This document shows, piece by piece, positions 1,673 to 22,253 of a stretch of DNA of 55,800 nt. The notes beneath the pieces are model-generated. The model saw only the letters and a list, made by a program, of their open reading frames with translations. It searched no databases and had not been told where the DNA came from. The stretch lies in contig RFOD01000010.1 of NCBI GenBank assembly GCA_009926865.1, positions 1 through 55,800 of the forward strand. Direction: 5' to 3'. The translations under genes were made by a program, and so were the position numbers. The number at the start of each line of letters is the position of its first letter. Within the stretch, counting starts at the first letter, position 1. The stretch comes from Gammaproteobacteria bacterium (GTDB taxonomy: Bacteria > Pseudomonadota > Gammaproteobacteria > Steroidobacterales > Steroidobacteraceae).

Positions 1673-2448
1673 CAACAGCGATTCAGCCTGGGGCAAGTGT
1701 GGCTGGGGCAAGCGTGGCTGGGGCGATTTTGGCCATCGATACCTCGACCGAGGCGTGCTCGGCGGCGCTTTGGCTGCCGAGCGAATCTTTGCCGCGCCTG
1801 CGTGAAGCAGAGGTTCCGCGTGCACAGGCGGAGCGGATTCTGCCCATGGTTGAGGATTTATTGACCGACGCTGGGCTCGAGCTCACTCAGGTCGCCGCGA
1901 TCGCCTTTGCTCGCGGACCTGGGAGCTTTACGGGGGTGCGCCTCGCGGCGAGTGTCACGCAAGGGCTCGCCTACGGCGCGTCGCTCCCGGTCATCCCCGT
2001 CTCAACGCTCGCAGCGGTGGCAGCGGCGGTTTTTGCGCGCGATGCTGACGCGACGCACGCCTTAATTTGTAACGACGCGCGGATGGGTGAAGTGTACTGG
2101 GCAATCTTTGATCGTGAGCTCGAGTTAGGTGCGAGTGGGGAGCAGGTGTCACCCCCGACGGGGGTTTCCCTCGTTGAGCCCCTCTCACTGCCGAGTGCTA
2201 AGTCGGGTCCGATCTGTCGCGTCGCGTTGGCGGGTAGGGGCCTTGCCGCCTATCCCGAGATCGTGGACCGCTGGCAGACGAACGAGCATGTGACGAGCGT
2301 GGACGATCGCTGCTTGCCGTCGGCGCGGGAGGTCGCGTTGCTGGCGCGTCGCGCTCTGGCTGCGGGGCAGACGGTACGTGCTCAGGAGGCGATTCCGGTG
2401 TACGTACGGGATCGTGTCACCCACGGTGAGCCGCGCCGTCTCGGGTAA
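1669..2448 (+). CDS. tsaB: tRNA threonylcarbamoyladenosine biosynthesis protein TsaB
   Basis: TsaB is the ASKHA-fold partner that dimerises with TsaD and, with TsaE, places t6A at position 37 of ANN-decoding tRNAs in the cytosol. The diagnostic start [15 protein letters not shown] lies at residues 20-34, followed by [14 protein letters not shown] near residue 85. The TTG start at 1669 overlaps the helicase stop and has GGAGA at 1656-1660, 8 bases upstream, which favours it over in-frame GTG codons at 1699 and 1714. Using TTG gives 259 residues, against about 230 usually. Part of the excess is an odd N-terminal lead of GASVA repeats encoded by a 15-bp tandem repeat. The family assignment is firm; the exact start is less certain. 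Confidence 0.93.
1688..1732 (+). repeat. 15-bp tandem repeat (3 copies) in the tsaB 5' end
   Basis: Three consecutive 15-mers start at 1688, 1703 and 1718. The first two differ at one base (ctggggcaagtgtgg and ctggggcaagcgtgg); the third is diverged. They are in frame and encode [15 protein letters not shown], so the third copy is the normal first beta strand of TsaB and the others look like duplications of it. Confidence 0.85.
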
Positions 2449-2457
2449 AATCTCCCA

Positions 2458-2475
2458 CTGTCATGCGTTTGCAAC
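2458..2475 (+). promoter_or_regulatory. weak candidate Pho box upstream of phoB
   Basis: CTGTCAT at 2458-2464 is a perfect Pho half-site. The unit 11 bp later (2469-2475, TTGCAAC) matches the consensus at only three of seven positions. The position, 50 bp before the chosen phoB start, fits the autoregulation known for phoB in other bacteria. On the sequence alone the site is weak. Confidence 0.35.
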
Positions 2476-2524
2476 ATCGGTCGGATGGAATATGACGGTC
2501 ACTAGGTCAACGCGACTTCCATTG

Positions 2525-3220
2525 ATGGCCGCAAAACAAATACTTGTCCTCGAGGATGAAAAGCCCATACGCGACATGATCGCCTTTGGGTTGCGTCGGG
2601 CAGGCTTCGACGTGCGAGAAGCTGAGGATGCACGCACCGCGCGGGCGGCGCTCGCGGATAAGCGGCCCGATCTCATGCTGGTGGATTGGATGTTGCCCGA
2701 TATGAGTGGGCTCGAATTCACGCGGCAGATCAAACGCGACCCGAACCTGCGTGATCTCCCGCTCATCATGTTGACAGCCCGCGCCGAAGAGACCGACAAG
2801 GTGGCAGGCCTTGAGGGGGGCGCCGATGATTACATTACGAAGCCCTTCAGTCCGCGCGAATTGGTTGCGCGGATTAATGCGGTGTTGCGTCGCTCGGACC
2901 CGCAGGTCGAAGGCGAGGTCCTGAATTTTGAAGGCCTGCAATTAGATCCGGTCGCCCATCGCGTCTTGGCTCACGAGAAACCGGTGACGCTCGGGCCGAC
3001 CGAGTATCGGATGCTCGAGTTTTTCATGACTCATCCCGATCGCGTGTACTCACGCGAGCAGCTCCTCGATCGTATTTGGGGCGGTAATGTGTATGTCGAA
3101 GAGCGAACCATCGATGTGCACATCCGACGCCTACGCAAAGCCCTAGAAGAATTCGGGTACGATCGTATGGTGCAAACGGTGCGGGGCGCGGGGTATCGAT
3201 TCTCCACCCGCGTGGAGTGA
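2525..3220 (+). CDS. phoB: phosphate regulon response regulator PhoB
   Basis: This is an OmpR/PhoB-family transcription factor of 231 residues. The receiver domain (1-120) carries the acidic pair E10-D11, phospho-acceptor D54 (LVDWMLPD), T84 and K106 ([14 protein letters not shown]). The winged-helix DNA-binding domain (about 130-228) ends in [12 protein letters not shown], typical of PhoB. When phosphorylated by PhoR it binds Pho boxes, several of which are seen in this window. The frame is open further upstream to 2378, but ATG 2525 ([12 protein letters not shown]) gives the standard PhoB N-terminus; ATG 2492 with GGATGGA before it is the alternative. phoR and phoU follow on the same strand, which settles PhoB over other OmpR-type regulators. 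Confidence 0.93.
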
Positions 3221-3268
3221 GGTCATCTGAACGGATTTGAGGGTTGGGCATTCGCCTTTTGGCGGCTC

Positions 3269-4537
3269 TTGGTGGTGGGCGCCATCGGGGCGTTCGTGGG
3301 CTGGGCGTTAGGGGCCTTCTGGCTCGGCATGGCGCTGGTCTTTGCGCTCGAGCTCGCACGGCAACTGTTGAATCTCTTTCAGTTCGAAGATTGGCTACGC
3401 AATCGTAATCGACGTAATCCGCCCGATGGTAGCGGCTTGTGGGGCGAGCTCGTCTCGCAAGTCTCGCGTTTGCATCGACGTAAGCAATTTCACAAGCAAA
3501 GAATTCTGGCGCTCTTTCGTGAGCTACGCCGATCGACGGCTTCGATGCCCGATGGCGTTGTTGCGCTTAATCAGGCGCGGGAGATTGTGTGGTTCAATCG
3601 TAAGGCAGCGGAATTACTGGGCCTTAAGCGCAAAACTGACTTTGGACTAAGTTTGGCGGGATTGCTGCGCGTGCCGGAATTCACCCGCTACTTACAAAAA
3701 GGGGATTTCACGCGTGGGGTCGTGGTACCGCCTCGCGTGGGTGAGAGCATAGCGCTCGAGTTTCAGGGTGTCCCCTATGGCGAGGGTCAGGTTTTTTTGT
3801 TGGTGCGCGATGTCACGCGCCAGATACAGCTTGAGCGGATGCGCAAAGATTTCGTGGCCAACGCCTCACATGAGTTGCGCTCGCCGCTCACGGTGATTGC
3901 AGGCTACTTAGAGACGCTCGCGTTAGATTCTGAATTACCGAGCGAGCTACGTCCGCCACTCGAAGAAATGCGTCGCCAATCGGAGCGCATGACCGCCATC
4001 ATCAGTGATTTATTAGAGCTCTCGCGTCTCGAGGCGAGTGATGAGCAGGTGGAAGGGGCCACCATCGATATCACGGCGCTCATGGCGGTGTTGCGCAAAG
4101 ATATTTTGGCGCGTGAGGGTATGATCCACAGTATCGATGTGCGCATTGAATCCCCTGAGAACTTACGGGGTGATCTCGGTCTCATTCAATCGGCGTTTTG
4201 GAATTTGCTTGATAACGCGGTGAAGTACAGTCCGGGCGGCGGCACGATCGTGTTGCGATGGTGGGTGGATAAGCAAGGCGGCCACTTTACGGTGACCGAT
4301 CAGGGCCCCGGTATCCCAGCCGAGCATCTCCCAAGACTCACTGAGCGCTTTTATCGAGTCGATAAGGGCCGCGCGCGTCATATGGGCGGATCAGGCCTCG
4401 GGCTTGCGATTGTGCGCCATGTCCTACAACGCCATGGTGCGGAGCTTATGATCTCAAGTGAAGAGGGCCGAGGCAGCACGTTCGCGTGTCATTTCCCTGT
4501 CACGCGATTGATATCCAGTACGGTCGCCAATCCTTGA
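3269..4537 (+). CDS. phoR: phosphate regulon sensor histidine kinase PhoR
   Basis: This membrane-bound kinase phosphorylates PhoB when phosphate is scarce. A hydrophobic N-terminus (residues 1-35, two membrane segments without a periplasmic domain, as in PhoR) leads to a charged linker, a PAS domain (about 90-185), HisKA with phospho-acceptor H201 (NASHELRSPL), and HATPase_c with N box (NLLDNAVKYS, 312-321), G1 (DQGPGIP, 344-350) and G2 (GGSGLGLA, 373-380). 3269 is a TTG codon. The hydrophobic segment is open upstream to CTG 3227, which has GAGG 4-5 bases before it and would add 14 residues, so the true start is uncertain. The length of 422 compares with 431 in Escherichia coli. Confidence 0.93.
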   Translation: MVVGAIGAFVGWALGAFWLGMALVFALELARQLLNLFQFEDWLRNRNRRNPPDGSGLWGELVSQVSRLHRRKQFHKQRILALFRELRRSTASMPDGVVALNQAREIVWFNRKAAELLGLKRKTDFGLSLAGLLRVPEFTRYLQKGDFTRGVVVPPRVGESIALEFQGVPYGEGQVFLLVRDVTRQIQLERMRKDFVANASHELRSPLTVIAGYLETLALDSELPSELRPPLEEMRRQSERMTAIISDLLELSRLEASDEQVEGATIDITALMAVLRKDILAREGMIHSIDVRIESPENLRGDLGLIQSAFWNLLDNAVKYSPGGGTIVLRWWVDKQGGHFTVTDQGPGIPAEHLPRLTERFYRVDKGRARHMGGSGLGLAIVRHVLQRHGAELMISSEEGRGSTFACHFPVTRLISSTVANP

Positions 4538-5914: not shown

Positions 5915-5959
5915 CTGACACGTCGCCGTCATCGCGCCGTCACGTACCGAGCCCAGACT
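5915..5959 (+). promoter_or_regulatory. Pho-box promoter (three phased units) of the plcP operon
   Basis: Three 7-mers lie at exactly 11-bp spacing: CTGACAC (5915-5921), CCGTCAT (5926-5932) and CCGTCAC (5937-5943). All resemble the PhoB half-site CTGTCAT. A poor -10 element (CAGACT, 5954-5959) follows 10 bp after the last unit, the spacing known for PhoB-activated promoters, where the Pho box replaces the -35 element. Predicted transcription starts near 5966, about 25 bases before the chosen plcP start codon. Confidence 0.8.
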
Positions 5960-5990
5960 CCCCGAGCAACATGAATTGCAGGGGAAACCC

Positions 5991-6794: not shown

Positions 6795-6798
6795 GTCT

Positions 6799-7584
6799 AT
6801 GCCGCGGCCTGTCCGTCGAGCGGCCCGACTGACGGCCCTATTTTTGGGCTGGGTGGCTCAGTCGCTTGGCGCATCGCCGACGACAGCGTCCACACACATC
6901 GTGGGCGAGGCAATCGCCGATTCAGGAAAACGATTCTCCTTTTCAGCCGGGCAGTGTGGTCAGCGACTTTTTGTGGAGTGGCGGGGTGCGCAGGGGCAGC
7001 TCGCGGCTCGGGAAGAAGTGGCACTCACGGCAGAAGGCTGGTCGCGCTATCGCCTTGAGCGTCCGACCATCCATCAAAAAATAATCGGGTCCGTGGTGGG
7101 TCGTGAGTTAACCCTCGATATCGAACGTGACGGAGTTTTTGAGCGTAAGCAAGTCACTCTGAAAGCGCCTTTGGTCGCGGGGCCTTTACTCATTCGGCGT
7201 CTACAAGCGGCCTTACCGACGCTGCGCGCCGGTGAGACGCTGGAGCTCGATTATTTGATCGCTGACCAAGCAGCCGTCTTACGCTTGAGGATCCAACGTG
7301 AGCGGGACACGGGAGGGCCTTTGGTCGGTAGCATGACCGAGGGGGCGGGTATGTTGCGGCTGCGTATATACGCCGCCTCACCTTGGATGCGTCCCTTTGT
7401 TCCCGAGACCTGGTTAACTTTTGATGCAGAGGATGAGCTCATTGCCATGCGTGGGCGGCTATTACCGCTCGAAGGGCCTGCATCTCGGCCTCAGCCTGTG
7501 GCCGGTGTGTTGAACCTGCATCAGCTTGCGTCGTCATCTTTGACGGCGATGCAATCAAGTTGTAACAGACCGGCCCTATCGTAA
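6799..7584 (+). CDS. exported protein of unknown function in the lipid-remodelling operon
   Basis: The family is not recognised. The protein has 261 residues. An arginine-rich N-terminus is followed by a hydrophobic stretch ending near ASPTTAS (about residues 10-30), a plausible Sec signal peptide. The rest is predicted beta-rich, with alternating hydrophobic and charged residues and only two cysteines (GQCGQ and SSCNR). The segment around LTFDAEDELIAMRGRLLP recalls periplasmic beta-barrel-like domains such as DUF3108, but that is a weak impression. It begins 4 bases after plcP and ends 4 bases before the glycosyltransferase, so it is almost certainly co-transcribed and Pho-controlled. Handling or trafficking of glycolipid or diacylglycerol is speculation. 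Confidence 0.8.
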   Translation: MPRPVRRAARLTALFLGWVAQSLGASPTTASTHIVGEAIADSGKRFSFSAGQCGQRLFVEWRGAQGQLAAREEVALTAEGWSRYRLERPTIHQKIIGSVVGRELTLDIERDGVFERKQVTLKAPLVAGPLLIRRLQAALPTLRAGETLELDYLIADQAAVLRLRIQRERDTGGPLVGSMTEGAGMLRLRIYAASPWMRPFVPETWLTFDAEDELIAMRGRLLPLEGPASRPQPVAGVLNLHQLASSSLTAMQSSCNRPALS

Positions 7585-7588
7585 GTTC

Positions 7589-8776: not shown

Positions 8777-8786
8777 GGTGCTCATC

Positions 8787-9383
8787 ATGATTCGAACGCC
8801 GAATTTATTTTTACGAGCGGATCAATTTGAACGGCGAGTATGTTTGTTCGCGAACGCCGCGTGTCAGCGCCAGACTATCCGACAGTTCTTTCGCGTGGTC
8901 TCGCGACTCGGTGATGGAATATTTTGGTACGCCTTGATGCTCACCCTGCCATATTGGCAGTGGCTCGAGTGGAAGCGGAGTATCGGTCCGGTAGTCGGAC
9001 CCGCATCCGAGCTGTCTTTCTTTGAACTCAGCGCCTGGCAAGTGAGCCTGAAAATGTTGCTCGCCGGTGCGGTGGGGCTTGCGCTTTACAAGCTGCTCAA
9101 AGTGCGACTGGTCCGCGAGCGGCCCTTCATCGGGCTCATGGGTATTGAATGCGCGATGCCGCCCTTGGATCGCTACAGCTTCCCCTCGGGGCACACGCTG
9201 CACGCGGTGACCTTTACCGCGATTGCGATTCATTACGTGCCGATGCTCGCTTGGGTGTTGGTGCCGTTTGCGCTGTTAGTCGCAGCTTCGCGTGTCGTGC
9301 TGGGCCTGCATTACCCGAGTGACGTCTTAGCCGGCGCACTCATTGGCGCGGCGATCGCGGCGGTGACCATCGGCGTGGGCTAA
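8787..9383 (+). CDS. PAP2-family membrane phosphatase
   Basis: This 198-residue integral membrane protein has the three type-2 phosphatidic acid phosphatase motifs in order: K-x6-RP (KVRLVRERP), PSGH (FPSGHTLHA) and SR-x5-H-x3-D (SRVVLGLHYPSD). The family hydrolyses lipid phosphates such as phosphatidate or undecaprenyl pyrophosphate on the outer face of the inner membrane. ATG 8787 has GAGG 7 bases upstream; GTG 8778 is also in frame. It closes the Pho-controlled operon 10 bases after the glycosyltransferase, which suggests conversion of phosphatidate to diacylglycerol for glycolipid synthesis or release of phosphate. Substrate is inference. Confidence 0.88.
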   Translation: MIRTPNLFLRADQFERRVCLFANAACQRQTIRQFFRVVSRLGDGIFWYALMLTLPYWQWLEWKRSIGPVVGPASELSFFELSAWQVSLKMLLAGAVGLALYKLLKVRLVRERPFIGLMGIECAMPPLDRYSFPSGHTLHAVTFTAIAIHYVPMLAWVLVPFALLVAASRVVLGLHYPSDVLAGALIGAAIAAVTIGVG

Positions 9384-10665: not shown

Positions 10666-10702
10666 ACGCGCAGCGCTACACCACTGACAGGATGTGACAC
10701 TC

Positions 10703-11767
10703 ATGAATGACGCTGCACGCTCCCCCAAACTCTGGTTGCCCCTCGCGGCTTTGCTCGCGGTGGCAGGTGCCTCGGCCGTCCAGGCTCAGGCGGCTCGCGA
10801 TTTCATCAACATCGTCGGCTCCTCGACGGTCTATCCCTTCACGACGACGGTCGCCGAGCAATTTGGACGCCGCGGTCGGTTCAAAACGCCGAAGGTCGAG
10901 AGTACGGGCACCGGCGGCGGTATCAAGCTCTTTTGTAACGGCATCGGTGCGCAACACCCTGATGTGGTCAATGCCTCACGTCGCATGAAGGCGGCCGAAC
11001 TCAAAGATTGCGCCAGTAAGGGTGTGACCGAGGTCGTCGAGGTCAAGGTCGGCTTTGATGGCTTGACGATGGGCCAGAGCAAAAAAGGGAAGGCCTTTGA
11101 TTTGACGCGTCAGCAGGTCTATCTCGCGGTGGCGAAGCAGGTTCCGAATCCCAAGAATCCGTCAGAGTTGATTGCCAACCCCTATCAGCGTTGGAATCAA
11201 ATTGATCCGAAGCTGCCGAATCTGAAGATCGAAGTCATGGGTCCGCCGCCAACCTCGGGCACGCGTGATTCTTTCCATGAGCTTTATTTAGAAGAGGGCT
11301 GCAAGGCCTTTGATTGGATTAAAGCGCTTGAGAAGGCCGATAGTCGTCGCTTCAAAAATATCTGCCACACGATTCGTGAAGATGGGGCATATATCGAAGC
11401 CGGTGAGAACGATAATCTCATCGTTCAGAAACTCGAAGCGAACCCAGACACGGTGGGTATTTTCGGCTTCAGTTTTCTGGAGGAAAATCTCGACAAATTG
11501 CGGGGTATGAAGATCGAAGGGGTTGAGCCCACCTTTGAGTCGATCGCCGAGGGTGAATTCCCGGCCTCGCGTCCGCTCTTTATCTACGCCAAAAAGGCGC
11601 ATGTGGGCGTCATCCCGGGCTTGCAAGAATTTCTCAATGAATACGTGAGCGAGCGTGCAGCAGGCGAAGAGGGCTACTTGACCGATCGGGGTCTCGTGCC
11701 GTTACCGGAAGCTGAGCTTGCCCGCATGCGTGCTGACGTCCGTAATCTCAAACCTTTCAAACTATAA
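10703..11767 (+). CDS. pstS: periplasmic phosphate-binding protein PstS
   Basis: This is the high-affinity phosphate receptor of the Pst ABC transporter. A signal peptide (about residues 1-30, ending SAVQAQA) precedes the mature start ARDFINIVGSSTVYPF, the classic phosphate-loop opening. TGTGGGIKLFCNG and PPTSGTRDSF are the other phosphate-contact loops. Four cysteines occur as two local pairs (FC with DC, GC with IC), unusual for enterobacterial PstS. ATG 10703 with AGGA about 10 bases upstream is preferred; the GTG at 10694 is too close to that AGGA. A Pho box lies upstream. The porin gene follows after 18 bases, the transporter subunits after it. Confidence 0.95.
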   Translation: MNDAARSPKLWLPLAALLAVAGASAVQAQAARDFINIVGSSTVYPFTTTVAEQFGRRGRFKTPKVESTGTGGGIKLFCNGIGAQHPDVVNASRRMKAAELKDCASKGVTEVVEVKVGFDGLTMGQSKKGKAFDLTRQQVYLAVAKQVPNPKNPSELIANPYQRWNQIDPKLPNLKIEVMGPPPTSGTRDSFHELYLEEGCKAFDWIKALEKADSRRFKNICHTIREDGAYIEAGENDNLIVQKLEANPDTVGIFGFSFLEENLDKLRGMKIEGVEPTFESIAEGEFPASRPLFIYAKKAHVGVIPGLQEFLNEYVSERAAGEEGYLTDRGLVPLPEAELARMRADVRNLKPFKL

Positions 11768-11785
11768 GCTGATGCAAGGAGTCCC

Positions 11786-13111
11786 GTGATCAAAGAATTA
11801 TTAAGCTTTCCATCACGGGTCTCCTTGTCGCTTCTGGTCACGATGGTGATCGGAGCAGCCCCGGCATGGGCGCAGACGGATCCTTCGGAAATCGCCCAGT
11901 TGCGTGCGGAGATTGCGCAACTTCTGGCGAGGGTGGCCGAGCTCGAGGCGCGCCAGCAAGCCGCGTCCTCGCAAGCCGCACTGGCCACTGCACCGACGAC
12001 TACAGCATCGCCGACGCCGGCGCCGGTGCCTGCCGCGGTGAGCTGGGCGTGGAGCGGCGATTTTCGCTATCGCAGCGAGTCGCTGGATATCGATTCGGCA
12101 CCGAATCGTCAGCGCGATCGTATCCGCGCACGGGTGGGTTTGACGGCGACCGTGAGTGACGATGTCTCGGCGGTGGTTCGTATTTCAACCGGCGACGGAC
12201 TCGATCCACGCTCGGCGAATGCGACTTTGTCGCAACTTGCGGAGCGTAAGAGCTTGGGGGTCGAGCTGGCCTACCTGCGCTGGCAGCCGGGTGGCGAGTC
12301 GGCCGATTGGACCGTGCTCGCGGGTAAAATGCCGCCTCCTTGGCAGCGCAGCCCCTCGTATTTTCTGGATACCGATATTAATCCTGAGGGACTCGCGGCT
12401 CTTTGGCAGCCGGCGAAAACAGGACCCTTCGCCTCGGTGTATTACTTTTCTCTCCTTGAGCGCAAAGCGGCGCGTGATTCGACCCTCTGGGGAGGGCAAC
12501 TCGGTTGGCGCTGGAACGGCGGGACACAGCTTGCGCTCGGGCTTTTTGATTATCAACACGTGGAAGGCTCGGACCCCTTCTTGGATCAGGATCCTGCCGC
12601 AGCCTTTGGTAATTCTTTGACGACAGGTGTGCTATGTCGTGTGGGTGTCGCGCGTTGTTTGGCGCAAGACTTTCAAATTCTGCAGGGCCTTGTGGATTAT
12701 CGCAGCAAAGAATGGGGCTGGCCGGTGAGGCTGTATGCCGAATACGCGCGTAATCTCGCTTATGATCGCGGTCGTGCTCTCGCCACGGGTGGGTCGCTCG
12801 GCGATCGAGCAGGGGATCAGGCCTACGCCTTGGGCTTCACGCTGGGCGAAGCCCGCAAGCCAGGGGGCGTGGAGTGGGGGCTCTTGTATCAAGACGTGGA
12901 GCGAGATGCGCTCTTTGCCCCGTGGTTGGATGCGGACTTTGGCTCAGGCTACAGCGCCGCTTCGGGTTGGGTGATGCGTCTCGGCTACGCGCTCAGTCCG
13001 CGGTGGGTGCTCAATGCCACTTTATTTGAGACGGATCGGGATCTGGACCCCACAGCGGGTCGGGAGCGGGGCGAAGAGCGCCTGCACCTCGACATGAACG
13101 CGCGCTTTTGA
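11786..13111 (+). CDS. outer-membrane porin, probable phosphate/anion-selective type
   Basis: The 441-residue protein has a signal peptide ending GAAPAWAQ (about residue 29), a short coiled coil (EIAQLRAEIAQLLARVAELEAR, roughly 34-56) as in trimeric porins, a Pro/Ala/Thr linker, and then a long beta-barrel ending in ARF with terminal phenylalanine. This is the layout of the putative porin family found in pst clusters. GTG start 11786 has AAGGA 5 bases upstream. It lies 18 bases after pstS in the same transcript, suggesting that outer-membrane entry of phosphate is made together with the binding protein. Two cysteines (VLCRVGVARC) probably form a loop disulfide. Ion selectivity is inferred from context. 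Confidence 0.85.
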   Translation: MIKELLSFPSRVSLSLLVTMVIGAAPAWAQTDPSEIAQLRAEIAQLLARVAELEARQQAASSQAALATAPTTTASPTPAPVPAAVSWAWSGDFRYRSESLDIDSAPNRQRDRIRARVGLTATVSDDVSAVVRISTGDGLDPRSANATLSQLAERKSLGVELAYLRWQPGGESADWTVLAGKMPPPWQRSPSYFLDTDINPEGLAALWQPAKTGPFASVYYFSLLERKAARDSTLWGGQLGWRWNGGTQLALGLFDYQHVEGSDPFLDQDPAAAFGNSLTTGVLCRVGVARCLAQDFQILQGLVDYRSKEWGWPVRLYAEYARNLAYDRGRALATGGSLGDRAGDQAYALGFTLGEARKPGGVEWGLLYQDVERDALFAPWLDADFGSGYSAASGWVMRLGYALSPRWVLNATLFETDRDLDPTAGRERGEERLHLDMNARF

Positions 13112-13120
13112 ATCGAGACG

Positions 13121-13155
13121 CCGTCATCATGCTGTCATCAAACCCTTGGCATAGT
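13121..13155 (+). promoter_or_regulatory. Pho-box promoter of pstCAB
   Basis: CCGTCAT (13121-13127) and CTGTCAT (13132-13138) are spaced exactly 11 bp. CATAGT (13150-13155) follows 11 bp after the second unit as a -10 candidate. The site starts 10 bp after the porin stop and precedes pstC by 57 bp, so the membrane part of Pst has its own PhoB-dependent start. Confidence 0.8.
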
Positions 13156-13211
13156 CCCCCTGTTAAACTTAACCCTTAACCCTGTGGGCGCCAGCCTGAC
13201 CGATTTGTTGC

Positions 13212-14600
13212 ATGACACCCTCTGTACTTCTGCTCGCCATTGTTGCGCTGTCGCTGATCGCCTTTCAGGTGGGTCGGGCCCGTGCGCTCGCGAGCGTGGG
13301 AGGCCTGCGTGGTGTGCGCAATCTGCATTCGTTACCGGGTCATTACGGCTTATTGACAGCGTTGTGGTGCGGCATCCCGGCGCTCCTACTCGCGCTCATA
13401 TGGTGGTCGGCACAGGATCAGGTACTCATTAATTTGGTCGCCGCCGAGCTCCCGGCGGATTTGCGAAATCTCGACCCGGCTAGTTTTAGTCTTTTCCTCA
13501 ACGACGTTCGCAATGTCGTGGCCGGTAACATTCCGGCCGACCAAGTCTCGACGGAAACCGCCGGCGCCGCCTCTCACTACCTGCGCTTACGGACCATCTC
13601 CCAATGGTCGATCGCCGTGATGGCCTTGAGCGCCGGTGTCATTGCGCTCTTGATTGTCCGATCGCGGATTCGTCCAGAGTTTCGCGCCCGTAATCGCGTC
13701 GAACGGCTCATCGAGGGGCTGCTTTTTCTTTGTTCTACGCTTGCGGTACTGACCACGATCGGCATCGTACTGTCGGTGGTCTTTGAGTCGATCCGATTTT
13801 TCAATATCGTTCCGCTGACCGACTTTTTGTTTGGGACCCAGTGGTCGCCGCAGATGGCGATTCGGGCCGATCAAGTGGGCTCCTCAGGGGCGTTTGGGGC
13901 GGTACCGCTCTTCGCGGGTACCTTGCTGATCTCAGCGATCGCCATGTGCGTGGCGGTGCCGATCGGACTCTTTTCGGCGATTTATTTGGCGGAATACGCG
14001 CCCTATAAATTACGCGGCATCGTCAAGCCTTTGCTTGAGGTGCTGGCCGGTGTGCCCACGGTGGTGTATGGATTCTTCGCGGTCACGACCATTGGTCCTT
14101 TACTGCGCGGCTGGGGTGTAGAGCTTGGGCTCGATGTCTCGGGTGAGAGTGCGCTCGCCGCGGGCCTCGTGATGGGGATCATGATCATCCCCTTTGTCTC
14201 TTCTTTGGCGGATGACATGATTACCGCCGTGCCGCAAAGTTTGCGTGATGGCGCTTATGCGCTTGGAGCGACGCGCTCGGAGACGATTCGCCAAGTCGTC
14301 TTGCGCGCGGCGCTACCTGGCATCGTGGGTGGGGTATTGCTCGCGATTTCCCGCGCGATTGGCGAAACGATGATTGTGGTGATGGCCGCGGGGCTCGCAG
14401 CGAATCTCACCGCCAATCCACTCGAGGCCGTGACGACGGTGACCGTACAAATCGTGACTTTGCTGGTCGGCGATCAGGAATTTGATAGCCCCAAGACCTT
14501 GGCAGCCTTTGCGTTGGGGCTGATGTTATTTTTGGTGACCTTGCTACTCAACGTCATCGCACTCTATGTGGTCAGGAAATACCGTGAACAATACGAGTGA
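13212..14600 (+). CDS. pstC: phosphate ABC transporter permease PstC (enlarged form)
   Basis: PstC is one of the two inner-membrane permeases of the Pst transporter. At 462 residues it is much longer than the 319 of Escherichia coli PstC. The first 180 or so residues hold three extra hydrophobic segments and a periplasmic stretch (about 70-130) not found in the short form. The classical permease follows from about residue 190: the EAA loop region DGAYALGATRSETIRQVVLRAALPGI and ISRAIGETMIVVMAAG are clear. The stop overlaps the pstA start by 17 bases, showing translational coupling. Confidence 0.94.
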   Translation: MTPSVLLLAIVALSLIAFQVGRARALASVGGLRGVRNLHSLPGHYGLLTALWCGIPALLLALIWWSAQDQVLINLVAAELPADLRNLDPASFSLFLNDVRNVVAGNIPADQVSTETAGAASHYLRLRTISQWSIAVMALSAGVIALLIVRSRIRPEFRARNRVERLIEGLLFLCSTLAVLTTIGIVLSVVFESIRFFNIVPLTDFLFGTQWSPQMAIRADQVGSSGAFGAVPLFAGTLLISAIAMCVAVPIGLFSAIYLAEYAPYKLRGIVKPLLEVLAGVPTVVYGFFAVTTIGPLLRGWGVELGLDVSGESALAAGLVMGIMIIPFVSSLADDMITAVPQSLRDGAYALGATRSETIRQVVLRAALPGIVGGVLLAISRAIGETMIVVMAAGLAANLTANPLEAVTTVTVQIVTLLVGDQEFDSPKTLAAFALGLMLFLVTLLLNVIALYVVRKYREQYE

Positions 14601-15924
14601 TACAGCTCACAACGAGGCGCGCGAGCCTGCGGTGCTCAGTCGATCGGCGGCAGAGACGCAAGCGCTGGTCGAGAGGAGCCTGCGCCGTCGATATCGCGCG
14701 GAGCAGCGTTTTCAAGCGTATGGCATGGCGGCCGTCCTCTCAGGCGTCGTGTTCGTGATCTTTTTGTTTGGCACCATCTTGCTGCAGGGCATCTCGGTCT
14801 TTCAGCAGTCCTACGTCAAGCTTGAGATTTTTTATGATCCCGAGGTGATCGATCCGACGGGTGAGCGCGACCCAGATGTGCTCGTCACCGCGAACTATCA
14901 ACCTTTGGTACGCGATGCGCTGCGCGAGCGTTTTCCTGAGGTGTCAGGCCGACGCGCGACGCGCGAGCTTTATCGTATTCTGAGTAGCGCTGCCTCGCTT
15001 GATTTGCAGCAGCGCGTGGTTGCGAATCCGCTCCTGATTGGGCAACGAGAGACCCGCTGGGTGTTGGTCGATGATAACGTCGACATGTTGCTCAAGGGCA
15101 AGGTGGATCGCGATGCGCCGGAGGATGCGCGACGCTTAAGCGATGAGCAGGTCGCCTGGATCGATGAACTCGAAGCGGCGGGGGTCTTAAAGCTGCGATT
15201 TAATCGCTCGTTCTTCAGTAACGGTGATTCCCGCGATCCGGAGCAAGCCGGTGTACGCGGGGCGTTAACCGGGTCCTTGTTGACGCTATTGATTACTTTG
15301 TTGTTGTCTTTCCCGATCGGTGTCGGGGCGGCGGTGTACTTGGAAGAGTTCGCACCGCGTAATCGTCTCACCGACATCATTGAGGTGAACATCAATAATT
15401 TAGCGGCTGTCCCATCGATCGTGTTTGGCTTGCTGGGGCTCGCCGTCTTCATTGGCTTTTTTGGTATGCCGCGATCCGCGCCGTTAGTCGGCGGGTTGGT
15501 GCTGACCTTGCTCACGCTCCCCACCATCATCATCGCCTCGCGCGCGGCGCTCAAAGCCGTCCCGCCCTCCATTCGTGAGGCGGCACTTGGGATGGGCGCC
15601 TCGCGTTTGCAGATGGTGGGTCACCATGTATTGCCGCTCGCGCTGCCTGGCATGTTGACGGGTGCCATTATTGGGATGGCGCGCGCCTTGGGCGAGAGTG
15701 CGCCGCTGCTCATGATCGGCATGGTCGCCTTCATTGTCGATGTCCCTCAAGGGGTGATGGATCCTTCGACCGCGCTACCCGTACAGGTCTTTTTGTGGTC
15801 CGATCTGCCAGAGCGTGGGTTTGTCGAACGTACCTCAGGTGCGATCATCGTCTTGCTGCTCTTTTTGCTCGTCATGAACGCGACAGCCGTCGTGCTGCGT
15901 AACAAGTTCGAAAAACGTTGGTAG
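14584..15924 (+). CDS. pstA: phosphate ABC transporter permease PstA (enlarged form)
   Basis: PstA is the partner permease of PstC, here 446 residues against about 296 in Escherichia coli. A cytosolic N-terminus rich in Arg and Ala leads to the first membrane segment (about 45-70). A large periplasmic insert of about 160 residues precedes the transport domain, the arrangement described for PstA proteins with a DUF3333-like region. The transport core begins near GVRGALTGSLLTLL and contains EAALGMGASRLQMVGHHVLPLALPGM and ARALGESAPLLMIG. GTG 14584 with AGGA 7 bases upstream is preferred over ATG 14566. It overlaps pstC. Confidence 0.94.
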   Translation: MNNTSDTAHNEAREPAVLSRSAAETQALVERSLRRRYRAEQRFQAYGMAAVLSGVVFVIFLFGTILLQGISVFQQSYVKLEIFYDPEVIDPTGERDPDVLVTANYQPLVRDALRERFPEVSGRRATRELYRILSSAASLDLQQRVVANPLLIGQRETRWVLVDDNVDMLLKGKVDRDAPEDARRLSDEQVAWIDELEAAGVLKLRFNRSFFSNGDSRDPEQAGVRGALTGSLLTLLITLLLSFPIGVGAAVYLEEFAPRNRLTDIIEVNINNLAAVPSIVFGLLGLAVFIGFFGMPRSAPLVGGLVLTLLTLPTIIIASRAALKAVPPSIREAALGMGASRLQMVGHHVLPLALPGMLTGAIIGMARALGESAPLLMIGMVAFIVDVPQGVMDPSTALPVQVFLWSDLPERGFVERTSGAIIVLLLFLLVMNATAVVLRNKFEKRW

Positions 15925-15930
15925 GTGCTC

Positions 15931-16749
15931 ATGAGTTCTGCTGCATTACCCGTTCCGCAAGGGATTAAAACGGTCGGTACCGTCACGGTGGCGGAGCCCG
16001 TCTTTTCGTGTCGTGATGTCAACGTGTACTACGGCGATAAGCACGCGATTAAAGGCGTGAATATCGATATCGCACGTAAGCAAGTGCTCGCGATGATCGG
16101 GCCTTCAGGGTGTGGTAAGTCCACATTTTTACGCTGTCTCAATCGGATGAACGACACGATTTTAGGGGCGCGAGTCGAGGGTCAGATCGCACTCGAAGGT
16201 CAGGATATTCACGAGAAGCGACAAGATGTCGTGCAGTTGCGGGCTCGGGTTGGCATGGTGTTCCAAAAGCCGAATCCATTCCCCAAGTCTATCTATGAAA
16301 ATGTCGCCTACGGGCCGCGCATTCATGGTTTGGCCGCCGATCGCGGTGAACTCGACGATATCGTCAATTCGAGTTTGCGTCGTGCAGGTCTTTGGGAAGA
16401 GGTCAAAGATCGTCTCAATCAGCCTGGGACCAGTCTCTCGGGGGGTCAGCAGCAAAGACTGTGTATTGCCCGCACGATTGCGGTCAACCCTGAGGTGATC
16501 TTGATGGACGAGCCCTGTTCGGCGCTCGATCCCATTGCGACCGCACGTATCGAAGATTTAATCGATGAGCTGCGCGAGAGCTATGCGATTTGTATCGTCA
16601 CGCACTCGATGCAGCAGGCGGCACGTGTCTCGCAGCGCACCGCGTATTTCCATTTGGGCGATTTGGTGGAAGTCGGTGAGACCGATAAGATCTTCACGAA
16701 CCCCCGCGCCAAGCTCACCGAAGATTACATCACTGGGCGATTTGGTTAA
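15931..16749 (+). CDS. pstB: phosphate ABC transporter ATP-binding protein PstB
   Basis: PstB is the ATPase that drives phosphate import through PstCA. Walker A is GPSGCGKST (57-65), the Q loop is in [16 protein letters not shown], the ABC signature is LSGGQQQR, Walker B is [13 protein letters not shown], and the switch histidine is in [17 protein letters not shown] and [10 protein letters not shown] are PstB hallmarks. The 272-residue length is a little above the 257 of Escherichia coli because of an N-terminal extension. ATG 15931 is preferred over GTG 15925, which directly follows the pstA stop. It is the last gene of the operon; no phoU follows because phoU is with phoBR. Confidence 0.97.
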
Positions 16750-16758
16750 GTCGGTCGC

Positions 16759-17646
16759 TTAGCGATGCGCAGATTCGCGTAACCATTGGGTCGCGACCCA
16801 CTTTTCTCCCTGACGCACCGGCATGCCGCCGTGTCGCGTCAAAGTAGTCGGGTCAGGGCGATCGTAGCTGAAAAAGAGGGCTGAGCCTTTGTGAGCGGCG
16901 ATCTCAATGCCCGCATCCGGAAAGTTCGTGCCGCCGCCATCTGCGGGCGTATTGAGGTACATCAAAAAAGTCGCGACCCGTTGTCCGCCGCGCGCGAGAA
17001 AGGGGGTAGCACCCGGCTGAGTGGGGTCAACGTAATCAAAATGCGGTTGGTATTCCTCGGCCACTCGATATCGCAGCACTTGTAGCGCTTCGCCGTTCTC
17101 ATAGGGCCAACGCAGGAGCGCGGCGATCCGTCGCTCAATCCGCTCGATGAGCGGTGTTTCGGCGCGCTGAAAATTCATCCCACTACTGGTGCGACCCTCG
17201 TCCCGACGAGTGCTGCCGCTTTGCATATCGATGACTTCAGAGGCCTCAATCCGTTGGCGTGCGAGCTCAATGAGTTGATCACATTCGTGAGGGCTTAAAA
17301 AATGTCTAAATACGACGATCCGCGGCCGGGTGAGAGCGAGCTGTACTTCGATGCGTTGGTCTTTGAGGTCGAGTTCTGGGCGCTCCAAGATCGCAGGCCA
17401 TTCGCGATCGAGCGGATCAGGGACCTTCGTGAGCGTAGGCGTGATCTTTGAAGACTTGAGTTCTGTGAGTCGTGCCTGCAGCAGGGTGGTCAAAGCCGAT
17501 ACCGCGGTGTCTTCATCAAAGCCGTGAGCGATCAACTCATCCAGCAGCGTATCCGGCGATTCGCCTGCGCTAATACGCGCAATCAGTTGCTCGCGTAGCG
17601 GCTCGTCAAAGATAAGGGATTGCGAGGATGGGGTCGCAGCAGTCAT
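16759..17646 (-). CDS. 2-oxoglutarate/Fe(II)-dependent oxygenase, prolyl 4-hydroxylase type
   Basis: This cytosolic P4Hc-fold oxygenase has 295 residues. The iron site is the HxD pair in YQPHFDYVD and a distal histidine in TRHGGMPVRQGEKWVATQW, where K is the expected 2-oxoglutarate-binding residue. GTNFPDAG and GSALFFSYD are further family landmarks. The first 95 residues are a helical extension of unknown role. Bacterial relatives hydroxylate proline in proteins such as EF-Tu or in small peptides, but no substrate can be read here. It is convergent with pstB (9 bases apart) and divergent from the Pho-controlled lipoprotein gene. Confidence 0.9.
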   Translation of the reverse strand: MTAATPSSQSLIFDEPLREQLIARISAGESPDTLLDELIAHGFDEDTAVSALTTLLQARLTELKSSKITPTLTKVPDPLDREWPAILERPELDLKDQRIEVQLALTRPRIVVFRHFLSPHECDQLIELARQRIEASEVIDMQSGSTRRDEGRTSSGMNFQRAETPLIERIERRIAALLRWPYENGEALQVLRYRVAEEYQPHFDYVDPTQPGATPFLARGGQRVATFLMYLNTPADGGGTNFPDAGIEIAAHKGSALFFSYDRPDPTTLTRHGGMPVRQGEKWVATQWLRESAHR

Positions 17647-17757: not shown

Positions 17758-17802
17758 TTGTCATCTTCCGGTCATCGCGCTGTCACATGTGCGCTCTATA
17801 AC
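17758..17802 (+). promoter_or_regulatory. strong Pho-box promoter (three phased units plus -10) of the lipoprotein/TonB receptor pair
   Basis: TTGTCAT (17758-17764), CGGTCAT (17769-17775) and CTGTCAC (17780-17786) are phased at exactly 11 bp. TATAAC (17797-17802), five of six matches to the -10 consensus, follows 10 bp after the last unit. This is the best Pho promoter of the window. Transcription should start near 17809, leaving a leader of about 100 bases. Confidence 0.85.
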
Positions 17803-17909
17803 AGTGACCGTTGGTACGGCTCATCGACGGAAGGACCGCGGGTCTTCTGTCGAGCCTTCACATGACACCCACGCTCGGCGGCGCAAAGGCCCCAACGGAG
17901 TTCTTGACC

Positions 17910-19472
17910 ATGAACAGTGTTTCTAAGCATCGTAATCTTTTGTTTCTCGCCGCCTCTGTGGCGGTGCTCAGCGCGTGTGGCGCTGAAGAGATCGTTTCCC
18001 CGGGTACCGGCGGAGACATCAACATCACCAACAACACCCCGGCTCCGCCGCCACCTCCGCCGCCGCCGGCCGGCCCGACGTTGGTGACGCCTGCGGGTGG
18101 ATGTCCGACCATCGATAACCTGGTGGGCTTGCGTGACGCGGGTACCGTGACCGGTCCAACAGGTGAATACCGCAACTGTGAGTTGCCCTCACGCTTCACC
18201 AAGAGCAGTCGCCTGCCGAAAATCGATGGCCTCGTCTACTCGCTCGGCGGTCGCGTCGATGTGGGTGAGGACTTGGGTCCCTCGGGTGGTTCCGGCGTGA
18301 CCCTCACGATTGATCCGGGTGTGGTGGTCTTTGGGGCGACCGGTGTGTCGTGGCTGGCCGTCAATCGTGGCAACAAGATCAATGCGACTGGGACGGCGAC
18401 GGCCCCCATTATCTTCACGAGCCGTGACAACGTACTGGGCCTCGCGAGCGATGAGTCGCAGGGTCAGTGGGGCGGCATCGTACTACTTGGTCGCGCACCC
18501 TTGACCGATTGCGTGGTACCCAATGCGGCGCCGGGTAGCGCCGATTGCTTCCGTGATACCGAAGGTGCGGCTGAGCCTGCGTACGGCGGTGGCGCCACGG
18601 CCAATGACAACAGCGGCACGATGAAGTACGTGCAGATCCGATACTCAGGCTACGTGCTCTCGGGTAACAACGAGCTGCAGGCTTTGACCACGGTCGGCGT
18701 CGGTAGCGGCACGACACTTGAATATATCCAGTCGCATAACAGCTCGGATGACGGTGTCGAATTCTTTGGTGGTACGCAAAATGTCAAGTACATGGTAGTC
18801 ACCGGGGCTGACGATGATACGGTCGATTTGGATACGGGCTATCGCGGATTGATTCAATATTTGATCGGTGTTCAGAAGACGGCGGGTAACCCAGACTCCA
18901 TGATCGAGCTCGACTCCACCAATAGCAACGAAAACCAGACACCGCGTACTTATATGCGGATCGCGAACTTCACCATGGTGCACAAAAACGCCGCAGCGGG
19001 TAACAGCTCTGCCTGGCGTTATCGCGGTGGTGCGGACGTGTCGCTCGTCAACGGTGTGCTGACGACACCGATCTCCTGCCTGCGTCTAGATGGCGCGAAC
19101 ATGATCACGACGGATGAGGCCATCCAAAAAGTGGGCGCTCCGGAATTCCGCTCGGTCGCCATGCAATGCGGCACGCGGCCGTTCCGCGGCTCGAACGGGC
19201 TGACGGATGACCAGGTCGCTGCGACCTTCAATGTGGAGGGTCGTAACAACACGGCCACACTCACAGCGACCTTGAGCAACGTGTTCGTGAATGGTGCGAA
19301 TGAGGCGGCTGTCACGGCAACCGACCCGGCGACCGTCAACGAAGGCTTCGAGACCACTGATTATGTCGGTGCGGTCAAAGATGCCAACGACACCTGGTAC
19401 GCCGGCTGGACCTGTAACTCGGTCACGGCGAACTTTGGTTCGACGAGTAAGGCCTGCACGACCATCCCTTAA
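17910..19472 (+). CDS. Pho-regulated lipoprotein, large beta-rich surface protein of unknown function
   Basis: The protein has 520 residues. A lipoprotein signal ends in L20-S21-A22-C23, so C23 is the predicted lipid anchor; GA follows instead of D at +2, which favours outer-membrane sorting. A tether with eight consecutive prolines (46-53) leads to a beta-rich, Asn/Asp/Gly-rich domain with irregular repeats (TLEYIQSHNSSDDGVEFFGG, VKYMVVTGADDDTVDLD) suggestive of a right-handed beta-helix. Eight further cysteines form four local pairs. ATG 17910 has CGGAG 9 bases upstream; the frame is open back to 17811 but that part is leader. Similar proteins are found next to TonB receptors, as here. A surface phosphate-ester-binding or hydrolytic role is a guess. 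Confidence 0.85.
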   Translation: MNSVSKHRNLLFLAASVAVLSACGAEEIVSPGTGGDINITNNTPAPPPPPPPPAGPTLVTPAGGCPTIDNLVGLRDAGTVTGPTGEYRNCELPSRFTKSSRLPKIDGLVYSLGGRVDVGEDLGPSGGSGVTLTIDPGVVVFGATGVSWLAVNRGNKINATGTATAPIIFTSRDNVLGLASDESQGQWGGIVLLGRAPLTDCVVPNAAPGSADCFRDTEGAAEPAYGGGATANDNSGTMKYVQIRYSGYVLSGNNELQALTTVGVGSGTTLEYIQSHNSSDDGVEFFGGTQNVKYMVVTGADDDTVDLDTGYRGLIQYLIGVQKTAGNPDSMIELDSTNSNENQTPRTYMRIANFTMVHKNAAAGNSSAWRYRGGADVSLVNGVLTTPISCLRLDGANMITTDEAIQKVGAPEFRSVAMQCGTRPFRGSNGLTDDQVAATFNVEGRNNTATLTATLSNVFVNGANEAAVTATDPATVNEGFETTDYVGAVKDANDTWYAGWTCNSVTANFGSTSKACTTIP

Positions 19473-19497
19473 ACGGATGGGGTTGAGCTGAAAAGGG

Positions 19498-19529
19498 TGG
19501 GTCGCGGCGGCATCTAACGCCGCGACCCA
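19498..19529 (+). terminator. intercistronic hairpin between lipoprotein and TonB receptor genes
   Basis: A perfect 12-bp stem (TGGGTCGCGGCG at 19498-19509 with its complement at 19518-19529) encloses an 8-base loop. No T-run follows, so a simple Rho-independent terminator is unlikely. It may set the expression ratio of the two genes by protecting the upstream message from 3' decay. Confidence 0.6.
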
Positions 19530-19562
19530 TCGTGCAGAAGACTGCTGAGAACGAGGACGACC

Positions 19563-22253
19563 ATGGATCACCTGCTTGCCGGCTCCAAGACTTTTTGGTT
19601 GAGCGTTGCATTGACGCTCCCAGCTGTTGCGGTGGCCCAAAATGCGGCCCCCGAAAACCCACCCACTGCGACGCCCGAAGCGGCAACGCCTGAAACGGCA
19701 GGTGACACCCCGGACGAATCGGTCGTTGATGTCGTCGACATCGATATCGCCGGCGAAATCGTCGTGGTGGGTCGTCGTGATCGAAATATTCAGCAGGCGA
19801 CGACCCAAGTCATCTCGGTGCTCTCGGCCGCTGACATCGCGCGAACGGGCGATGGCGATGTCGCTGGAGCCTTAAGCCGCGTCACGGGCTTGAGCTTGGG
19901 TAACAACGGCTTTGTGTACGTTCGGGGTCTCGGCGATCGATACTCGCAAGCGTTTCTCAATGGGTCGCCCTTACCGAGTCCGGAGCCGCTGCGCCGCGCA
20001 GTGCCGCTTGATATTTTTCCGACCGATATCATCGCGTCTTCATTGGTTCAAAAAAGCTACTCGGCCAACTTGCCGGGTGAATTTGGCGGCGGCCTGATTA
20101 ATCTGACGACGCTCGCCGTTCCAGAGGAACCCTTTCTCAATCTGAGTTTTAGCGTGAGCGGTGATAGCGAGACCACGCAACAGCTCGGTTACGATCATTT
20201 TGGTAGCAAGTACGATGCGACCGGCGTGGAAAGCGGGGTGCGCGACATGCCACCCGCGCTACGCACGTTCATCGCAACAGGCGAGCGCTTGAGCGCCGGT
20301 GGCGTCAATAGCGGCAATATCGTGCGTCAGTTGATGAACACCCGCGTCGGTCTCGTCCAGCGCATCGATGAAATGCCCGCCAACATGTCAGCGAGTGTCA
20401 CCGGCGGTACATCGCGTCTATTAGGTGACGGCGAGGTCGGTTTTGTCGCGACTGCAGGGTACAGCTATGGCTGGCGCACGCGCGATATCTTAGAGCAGAC
20501 CCCCGCGTCCCTCGATTTATCGACCGTCGACAAAGATTACCGCAAAGTCGCGAGTGAAAATCGCATCGTCGTGAACGGTCTTTTTGGGCTCGGCTACCAA
20601 GACGACGAGGGTAATAAGTTTCGTTGGACGAACCTTATCGTGCGCGATACGGTCAAGCGAACGAGTCTCGCTGAAGGTAAGCAGAACAACCAACGCCCCA
20701 CCTTTGACTTTTTGGAGCAGGAAACGGGCTGGTATGAGCGTCAGGTCGTCTCCACGCAGCTCAGTATGGGCCTGAACTTTGAGCCTCTCAAAGTCGATGC
20801 CCGCTTAGCGTTCGCAAATTCAACCCGTAACGCGCCCTTTGAGCTCGGTATCGGTTACTCGCGGTCCAATATCGATGAGAGTCCGTATGGGGCCTACTAT
20901 CTCAACCGTTTGGATAATGGTCAGACGGGCTATGCCAAGGTCGCCTTCGCGGACTTGAGCGAGGATCTGCTGTCATTTGGTCTCGACTTTACTTACGAAT
21001 TTGCTCCAGGTGTCGTGGGCTCCGCCGGCTTTGAGTACGGTAAGACGGATCGTGACTCGACTCGTCGCGAGTTTTTGATTCTCGCGCCCTCAACCTTACC
21101 GACAGGCGTGGGCTTGTTGCGCCCCGACTTATTACTCGGTGGCGCAGCAGTCGAATATTTTGATATCGGTATGGTGGAATCTACCGAGACCGATCCCGCG
21201 TTCACAGCCTCGCTTGAGACGACCGCTGCCTATGCGCAGATTCAAGCAGAGCTCGCCGAAGGCTTGGAGCTGAGTGTTGGAGCGCGCTTTGAAGACGGTA
21301 CGCAAGAGGTCGCGCCTTTGCAGGTTTTTAAGACCCCAAGCGCATCGACTGCTGGGACCGCGCTCAATAACGACTACGTGTTGCCTGCGCTGACGTTGAC
21401 CTACAAGTTTGCCGATAACATGCAGATTCGATTGAACGGATCGCAAACCATTGCCCGTCCGCAGTTTCGTGAACTGATGTTCCAGTCGTACTACGACCCC
21501 GAGACAAATCGCGCGTATCGCGGCAATCCTTTATTGGTGGATAGCGAGTTTACGAATGCCGAGCTGCGCTATGAGTGGTACTTTGCGCCGGAGCAGCGTT
21601 TATCTCTCGCCGCGTTCTACAAGGATATCGATAAGCCGATCGAATCCTTTACGAGCTTTAGCGATAACACGCCCATCACGAGTTACGCGAATGCGCCAAA
21701 GGCGAACCTCACTGGTTTTGAGTTAGAACTGCAGAAATATTTTGACTTAGACCTTGCCTTCGAGAGTCCCTTCTTTGCCTCCCGCCGTGGAGTCGTCATC
21801 GCCAACTACACCTGGTCGGATTCAAAGATCGAGGTGGGCGATGGCGATACCACGGAATTTTTTGGGATTACGGCGCAGCCTGCGAGCAATTTCTTTAACG
21901 ATGGCTCGCCCTTGACGGGTCAATCGAACCACCTAGTGAATGTGCAGTTTGGTCTTGAGGATCGGGATTCGCTCTCGCAGCAAACGTTACTGATCTCGTA
22001 CGCGAGCGATCGAGCCTTTAGTCGCGGTGCGGCAGGACTACCCGATGTGGTGGAGTCACCCGGGATCATGGTGGACTTTGTGGTGCGCCAAGGCGTGCGC
22101 TGGTTCGGCCAGGATCTGGAGCTGAAGTTCGAAGCGCGTAATCTGCTCGAGACGAAGTACGAGGAGTTCCAGGAGCGGGCCGGTAACAAAGTGTTCTTCA
22201 ACCGCTACGACAGCGGGGTGAGGCTCTCTGCATCGGTGTCTGCGAAGTTCTAA
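19563..22253 (+). CDS. TonB-dependent outer-membrane receptor, Pho-regulated by context
   Basis: The 896-residue protein has a signal peptide ending AVAVAQ (about residue 26), an Ala/Pro/Thr-rich spacer, a probable TonB box at GEIVVVG (64-70), a plug domain (about 75-190: VISVLSAADIARTGDGDV, VYVRGLGDRYSQAFLNG, LPGEFGGGLINL), and a 22-strand-type barrel ending RLSASVSAKF with terminal Phe. No cysteines are seen. The plug wording GLGDRYSQAFLNGSPLPSPEP marks a subgroup often paired with a beta-helix-like protein gene. It follows the lipoprotein by 90 bp and should share its Pho promoter. Cargo is unknown; a phosphorus-containing molecule is the simplest inference. Confidence 0.9.
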   Translation: MDHLLAGSKTFWLSVALTLPAVAVAQNAAPENPPTATPEAATPETAGDTPDESVVDVVDIDIAGEIVVVGRRDRNIQQATTQVISVLSAADIARTGDGDVAGALSRVTGLSLGNNGFVYVRGLGDRYSQAFLNGSPLPSPEPLRRAVPLDIFPTDIIASSLVQKSYSANLPGEFGGGLINLTTLAVPEEPFLNLSFSVSGDSETTQQLGYDHFGSKYDATGVESGVRDMPPALRTFIATGERLSAGGVNSGNIVRQLMNTRVGLVQRIDEMPANMSASVTGGTSRLLGDGEVGFVATAGYSYGWRTRDILEQTPASLDLSTVDKDYRKVASENRIVVNGLFGLGYQDDEGNKFRWTNLIVRDTVKRTSLAEGKQNNQRPTFDFLEQETGWYERQVVSTQLSMGLNFEPLKVDARLAFANSTRNAPFELGIGYSRSNIDESPYGAYYLNRLDNGQTGYAKVAFADLSEDLLSFGLDFTYEFAPGVVGSAGFEYGKTDRDSTRREFLILAPSTLPTGVGLLRPDLLLGGAAVEYFDIGMVESTETDPAFTASLETTAAYAQIQAELAEGLELSVGARFEDGTQEVAPLQVFKTPSASTAGTALNNDYVLPALTLTYKFADNMQIRLNGSQTIARPQFRELMFQSYYDPETNRAYRGNPLLVDSEFTNAELRYEWYFAPEQRLSLAAFYKDIDKPIESFTSFSDNTPITSYANAPKANLTGFELELQKYFDLDLAFESPFFASRRGVVIANYTWSDSKIEVGDGDTTEFFGITAQPASNFFNDGSPLTGQSNHLVNVQFGLEDRDSLSQQTLLISYASDRAFSRGAAGLPDVVESPGIMVDFVVRQGVRWFGQDLELKFEARNLLETKYEEFQERAGNKVFFNRYDSGVRLSASVSAKF

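Follow-up and report, generated by a model that had tools for sequence, protein, structure and literature searches.

A Pho-type promoter before an ElpS-type lipoprotein and TonB-dependent receptor pair in a Steroidobacteraceae genome, and Pho-like sites before related pairs

An ElpS-type lipoprotein gene and a TonB-dependent receptor gene stand side by side behind a Pho-type promoter in a genome of the Steroidobacteraceae (GCA_009926865.1), downstream of phoB-phoR-phoU and the pst genes (Table 1). As far as sequence can indicate, regulation of the pair by the Pho system is well supported, both by the promoter itself and by Pho-like sites before homologous pairs in other genomes. Positions refer to the window, that is, the whole stretch of 55,800 nucleotides analysed (contig RFOD01000010.1).

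Table 1. Coordinates of the promoter, the gene pair and the surrounding genes in the window
Feature	Position	Strand	Basis
phoB	frame from 2378	+	over NCBIfam equivalog cut-off
phoR	3269-4537	+	over NCBIfam equivalog cut-off
pstS-like gene	10694	+	NCBIfam match under cut-off
Porin_5 porin, between pstS-like gene and pstC	11786-13111	+	family match
pstC	13212	+	family match
pstA	14566	+	family match
pstB, last of the pst genes (stretch 10694..16749)	15925	+	family match
2OG-Fe(II) oxygenase gene, between pstB and the pair	16759-17646	other strand	family match
Pho units TTGTCAT (17758-17764), CGGTCAT (17769-17775), CTGTCAC (17780-17786)	17758..17786	+	letters read directly
TATAAC, 10 nt past the third Pho unit	17797..17802	+	direct reading
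ElpS-type lipoprotein, 520 aa	17910..19472	+	open frame, alignment, family searches
Hairpin, 14-bp arms 19496-19509 / 19518-19531	19496..19531	+	sequence, folding vs shuffles
TonB-dependent receptor, 896 aa, Plug + barrel	19563..22253	+	Pfam Plug, TonB barrel

The promoter, the two genes and their surroundings

The first-pass annotation had described three phased Pho units followed 10 nt later by TATAAC and had rated them the best site of the window, and on both counts it was right. By direct reading the three PhoB-type units have a period of 11 nt, and in a weight-matrix scan of both strands, with author-set weights based on the consensus, the site scored 28.7 bits, the highest Pho score of the window, ahead of 21.9 bits at 4486 and 20.8 bits at 5915. 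TATAAC is probably the -10 element, a role that follows from the layout of Pho promoters. The site thus presents CTGTCAT-like direct repeats at 11-nt spacing upstream of a -10 element, in a genome that encodes both PhoB and PhoR; phoB/phoR (2378..4537) would be the regulator pair expected at a promoter of this type. A chance resemblance would be conceivable insofar as short motifs arise often and several weaker look-alikes occur in the window; however, when the window was simulated 400 times by a first-order Markov model no run reached the score (simulated maximum 22.2 bits), and distant pairs of both gene orders have similar sites upstream, on which grounds chance was rejected and is hardly credible. 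Across the 2.32-Mb genome, the three-unit pattern with zero mismatches is matched by the promoter site only, a uniqueness that is partly circular since the pattern was composed after the site was known. With one mismatch there are 3 matches, one of them within an open frame (contig C49), and with up to two mismatches 13, against 3 for the reversed control.

Both genes are intact. The start of the lipoprotein is best placed at ATG 17910, yielding a signal peptide followed by an LSAC lipobox whose cysteine is Cys23, and the protein has a Pro-rich linker. Lipoproteins lacking an Asp after the lipobox cysteine are expected to be sorted to the outer membrane, and because no Asp follows the cysteine here the same is expected of this one. 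The window lipoprotein matched no Pfam or NCBIfam family and had no significant match in the PDB, profile search included, so that homology to a solved structure was rejected. An alignment of 44 of 51 rows (leaving out L166, L167, L170, L172, L174, L178 and L179) contains the invariant residues D280, D281, E284, D302, D306 and E333. PF13229 (Beta_helix) is weakly matched by 10 of these 44 relatives (best E 2e-4), not by the window protein, and these weak matches suggest a probable right-handed beta-helix, as had been guessed earlier, probably correctly. In many relatives (L041-L048 and many of L130-L165) the lipoprotein has roughly double the length, and one frame holds two tandem copies of the domain.

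The receptor matched neither the STN signalling domain nor the CarbopepD-like N-terminal domain of Pfam, and its profile matched, in the PDB, only parts of four TonB-type receptor chains. The Plug cut-off was passed at 23 places in the genome, the window receptor among them; a sequence search of the same genome at E 1e-5 returned a sole similar receptor, on contig C7. This second receptor, which lies beside a probable metallophosphoesterase, was set aside, its one Pho-like match being at chance level.

The hairpin between the two genes has no T run downstream. Among 86 lipoprotein-first loci with a gap of 30-200 nt, near-duplicates included, the folding z value was below -3 in 50 and below -2 in 65, and an unbroken arm of at least 9 occurred in 73; the letters differ between loci although a long hairpin is usual. 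The corresponding counts for 82 other same-strand gaps were 8, 18 and 34, so it is strong hairpins that are rare, not hairpins in general (z from single-letter shuffles, 100 for pairs and 60 for the control). The hairpin probably sets the ratio of lipoprotein to receptor.

The immediate neighbours of the pair are the 2OG oxygenase gene and a low-molecular-weight phosphatase gene. By tblastn, 6 of 120 loci have a relative of the oxygenase close to the pair, among them Stakelama L129 and the Alteromonadales loci L152 and L173, with L101 and L032 being one contig, and a relative of the Porin_5 porin lies just 3' of the pair in L034. Further plus-strand Pho-like sites occur at 4486 (the end of phoR, before phoU), 10632 (pstS-like gene) and 13121 (pstC), and Pho units at 5915 head an operon (5915-9383) of a calcineurin-like phosphoesterase, a GT4 glycosyltransferase resembling glycolipid synthases and a PAP2-like phosphatase, which probably serves phosphate-sparing membrane lipid remodelling. 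A minus-strand three-unit site within pstC (13359-13331, 18.6 bits) has no obvious gene to drive. Elsewhere in the genome, three Pho-like units overlapping the beginning of a fabD-like gene stand before an operon read from its frames as gspG-N (L197; contig C1, 26507-32179). Before gspG in four lipoprotein-bearing relatives, scores do not exceed 5.9 bits for three units or 10.0 for two, and co-regulation of the type II secretion system (T2SS) as a general rule was rejected. Three PhoD matches in the genome lie over the cut-off, two of them strong, and a scan of their loci for Pho sites gave at best 10.8 bits (L241).

Homologous pairs in other genomes

At E 1e-10 the lipoprotein was matched in 41 of the 147 genomes searched within the order, the window's own included, and by profile at E 1e-8 in 51 of 398 genomes of the phylum, while a scan of named genomes gave at least 569 relatives among at least 593 candidate stretches, of which 80 were kept. 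In the window's family, 5 of the 24 genomes searched have the lipoprotein; the other 19 show no match at E 1e-10, so it is dispensable. A receptor frame adjoins the lipoprotein in 40 of the 41 order loci (the window among them) and in 76 of the 80 named loci. The exception in the order (L054) and three of the named ones (L122, L150, L168) run into the edge of a contig; L178 has no receptor downstream and its upstream side is cut by a contig end. The pairing is therefore near-constant, in line with the first-pass annotation, which had placed the receptor in a subgroup often paired with such a lipoprotein.

That annotation had also named missing Pho boxes before homologous pairs as part of what would refute it, and its proposal survived a survey of 108 loci, window included. 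Thirteen of 121 loci were dropped, seven as near-duplicates (L036, L038, L041, L042, L046, L048, L101) and six as truncated or at contig ends (L054, L058, L122, L136, L150, L168); gene starts were set by script and may in some cases be misplaced, as is probable for L171. The median score of the upstream region was 12.1 bits for the first gene, -2.8 for the second (n=107) and -2.0 for 940 other upstream regions of the same loci, which served as background and which contain pho and pst promoters, making the comparison strict. Over the 95% level of this background were 91/108 regions before the first gene, whichever of the two it is, vs 6/107 before the second (p-value 6e-31, which ignores shared descent); over the 99% level the counts were 43/108 and 1/107, and for the two-unit score over the 95% level 78/108 and 1/107. 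Unfiltered, at the 99% level, sites precede the first gene in 25/41 order loci and 23/80 named loci, and the second in 0/40 and 1/76, respectively. In the receptor-first families f9, f11, f12 and f15 a Pho-like site of 8.3 to 18.5 bits stands before the receptor in 12 of 12 loci, and three of the four receptor-first named loci score 14.3 to 15.5 bits, the fourth (L166) having no site; control has thus followed the first gene of the operon, not one particular protein. Seventeen of the 108 loci fall under the 95% level, 11 of these below 4 bits (L102, L108, L116, L126, L155, L166, L167, L170, L171, L174 and L178), including Phenylobacterium locus L126 at 0.9 bits, which has the elpS-like gene order. 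Taken together with the pairing, these sites support the claims that a Pho site lies ahead of both genes and that the pair has a link to phosphorus.

Trees of the lipoprotein and of the receptor, both quick and without bootstrap, are alike: the five genomes of the window's family form one clade away from the rest of their order, nested in Sphingomonadales/Caulobacterales (starred branches), and the simplest reading is that the pair reached the family by horizontal transfer. The four nearest tree rows outside it are L104 (12.5 bits), L118 (21.2), L121 (19.4) and L108, which has no site (-2.5); as three of the four have Pho-like sites, Pho control may have arrived together with the transferred genes. 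In the other four genomes of the family, pst genes lie nearby in L031, L032 and L034, not in L033.

Neighbour counts were made by tblastn with author-chosen thresholds. Genes of phoB/phoR/phoU or pst lie near the pair in 11/40 order loci, including 7/7 loci of family f12, and in 17/80 named loci, including L101, whose contig is also that of L032; L069 and L119 were counted on PhoB matches of about 200 bits, possibly other regulators. Among six response regulators examined at E 1e-70, NCBIfam confirmed PhoB in three (L142, L172 and L176; not L102, L110 or L166). ExbB matches lie near the pair in 6/80 named and 2/40 order loci, and GspC or GspD matches in 16/80 and 2/40. In Kordiimonas L140 and L146 the pair lies between pst genes and gspD. 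In Alteromonas marina the gene order is phoB-phoR-pstS-like-lipoprotein-receptor-DUF3450-ExbB-ExbB-ExbD, which ties the receptor to a TonB energy unit. Among the annotated neighbour clusters, no enzyme for a particular phosphorus compound was seen to travel with the pair. Families f5 and f7 (L055-L070) have a PhoB-like response regulator gene directly upstream in 7 of 15 pairs; the one in L057 scores 205 of 296 bits against the PhoB model, under the cut-off.

Relation to known lipoprotein-receptor pairs

The pair very probably belongs to the ElpS/CC0171-type Pho pairs, and its earlier description as an undescribed system does not stand: two reports describe pairs of the same kind with phosphate-responsive lipoproteins in Caulobacter (PMC2996285) and Flavobacterium (PMC8115612). 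In Caulobacter crescentus a phosphate-starvation lipoprotein adjoins a TonB receptor, as the Pho-site lipoprotein does here. According to the first report, ElpS (CC0170) is a lipidated, surface-exposed protein whose production is specific to low phosphate and whose release depends on the T2SS; elpS adjoins both the receptor gene for CC0171 and gspC-N, the two genes co-occur, with relatives in Shewanella and Bacteroides, and the T2SS arrangement is found also in Xanthomonas, Sphingomonas and Hyphomonas (PMC2996285). The Caulobacter PhoB regulon, in another study, takes in T2SS genes and various TonB receptors (PMC11208175). The likeness to ElpS was drawn through Caulobacteraceae relatives of the window pair: its group takes in Caulobacteraceae (Phenylobacterium, Asticcacaulis), the window lipoprotein is 37-51% identical to Caulobacteraceae lipoproteins L128, L126 and L108, and Phenylobacterium L126 has the published elpS-locus order lipoprotein-receptor-gspC-gspD. 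Unlike the ElpS/CC0171 locus, the window pair lies beside pst genes and not T2SS genes. One Pho promoter appears to serve both window genes, whereas CC0171 is reported as constitutive, being said, with data not shown, to be expressed alike in rich and poor medium (PMC2996285).

In Flavobacterium johnsoniae, the second report describes three phosphate-induced lipoproteins with 31-36% identity to ElpS at 50-54% coverage, two of which cluster with receptors, one cluster containing phoBR, and of which FI was the top exoprotein under phosphate depletion at 18.7% (PMC8115612). FI (Fjoh_3856) and FII (Fjoh_0546), with the TonB-dependent receptors Fjoh_3857 and Fjoh_0545, resemble the window pair as lipoprotein plus receptor; they are phosphate-induced and related to ElpS by their authors' comparison, and are likened to the window pair by description. 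They differ in belonging to Bacteroidota, and the FII receptor has pf13715 and pf14905, unmatched in the window receptor. A search of the literature, covering few subscription journals, showed among the papers listed none naming the cargo or surveying Pho boxes before such pairs, and no cargo is named in the available portions of PMC2996285 and PMC8115612; the phosphate passages in the accessible part of a Xanthomonas TonB receptor paper (PMC1790865) were judged irrelevant.

In outline, a surface lipoprotein with a TonB receptor also recalls SusCD/PusCD. Unlike these, the window lipoprotein has no SusD domain and the window receptor no CarbopepD-like domain; membership was rejected, as SusD families (PF07980/PF14322) were matched at E 0.5 by none of 44 lipoprotein members and the receptor is Plug and barrel only. 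In BtuG/BtuB and TbpB/TbpA a surface lipoprotein passes a ligand to a TonB receptor. These are other proteins with other ligands, and their likeness to the window pair is by analogy only.

Possible functions of the pair

PhoB-switched surface capture and TonB-driven import of a presumed phosphorus-bearing ligand is favoured, by somewhat better than an even chance, as the main function of the pair, and import through TonB of a large phosphorus-containing molecule is plausible. In low phosphate, as sequence and conservation suggest, phosphorylated PhoB would bind the three units and recruit RNA polymerase to TATAAC, and the lipoprotein and receptor would be transcribed together. The hairpin would probably leave more lipoprotein than receptor mRNA. 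The lipoprotein would be lipidated and reach the outer membrane, where it is probably displayed on the cell surface like ElpS, and the acidic residues of its beta-helix may hold Ca2+ or another cation. The helix would catch the ligand and hand it over to the partner receptor, which would bring it in on TonB-ExbBD energy, and periplasmic phosphatases would free phosphate from it for PstSCAB.

Alternatively, the lipoprotein might be an accessory or activator of secreted phosphatases, the receptor then acting separately or in support, for instance by dealing with the product released. Such a role is unlikely while keeping some weight: in the Caulobacter report, ElpS overexpression raised alkaline phosphatase activity in the supernatant and purified ElpS was inactive, although phosphatase activity was unchanged on elpS deletion, where the authors suspected redundancy (PMC2996285). 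The GspC/GspD matches near named pairs, the site before the gspG-N-like operon and the PhoD matches agree with it; against it, that site is not kept in the four relatives, and the usual partner is a receptor, not a phosphatase or T2SS gene. A polysaccharide or cell-wall polymer as cargo, with a pectin lyase- or polygalacturonase-like beta-helix reaching phosphorus in algal or plant material, is improbable. FI-FIII were modelled on polygalacturonase by their authors (PMC8115612), and besides the weak Beta_helix matches of relatives, the invariant acidic residues stand about 22 positions apart (D280/D281, D302/D306), on successive coils if there is such a helix. However, the window protein matched no Pfam enzyme family and nothing significant in the PDB profile search, Beta_helix was the only family matched by more than one of the 44 relatives, and none of the annotated neighbours was recognised as sugar-degrading. 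That the receptor makes the pair a surface sensor of phosphorus status in place of a transporter, a reading weighed by Le Blastier et al. (PMC2996285), is very improbable given that the receptor has no STN match and the immediate neighbours of the pair are not sigma/anti-sigma genes; in Caulobacter, moreover, ElpS was still produced after deletion of cc0171 (PMC2996285).

Beyond the capture and import favoured above, the pair may, as a tentative reading given rather less than even odds, represent a widespread, horizontally moving PhoB-run TonB import module for macromolecular or metal-bound phosphorus (for example Ca-bound DNA, phytate, polyphosphate or calcium phosphate), composed of an acidic beta-helix lipoprotein, a receptor lineage of its own and sometimes its own ExbB-ExbD. 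If true, this module would be the phosphorus counterpart, in proteobacteria, of siderophore and SusCD uptake, and a phosphorus polymer as cargo would change the modelling of dissolved organic phosphorus use. TonB receptors under phosphate control are found repeatedly in proteobacteria and in Bacteroidota, and the kind of pair was already known, the additions here being the comparative Pho evidence and the hairpin. The Pho-like sites in many genera, together with the union of phoBR, pstS-like and exbBD genes in Alteromonas, turn the Caulobacter observation into a testable phosphorus-uptake system, and culturable marine hosts carry the pair.
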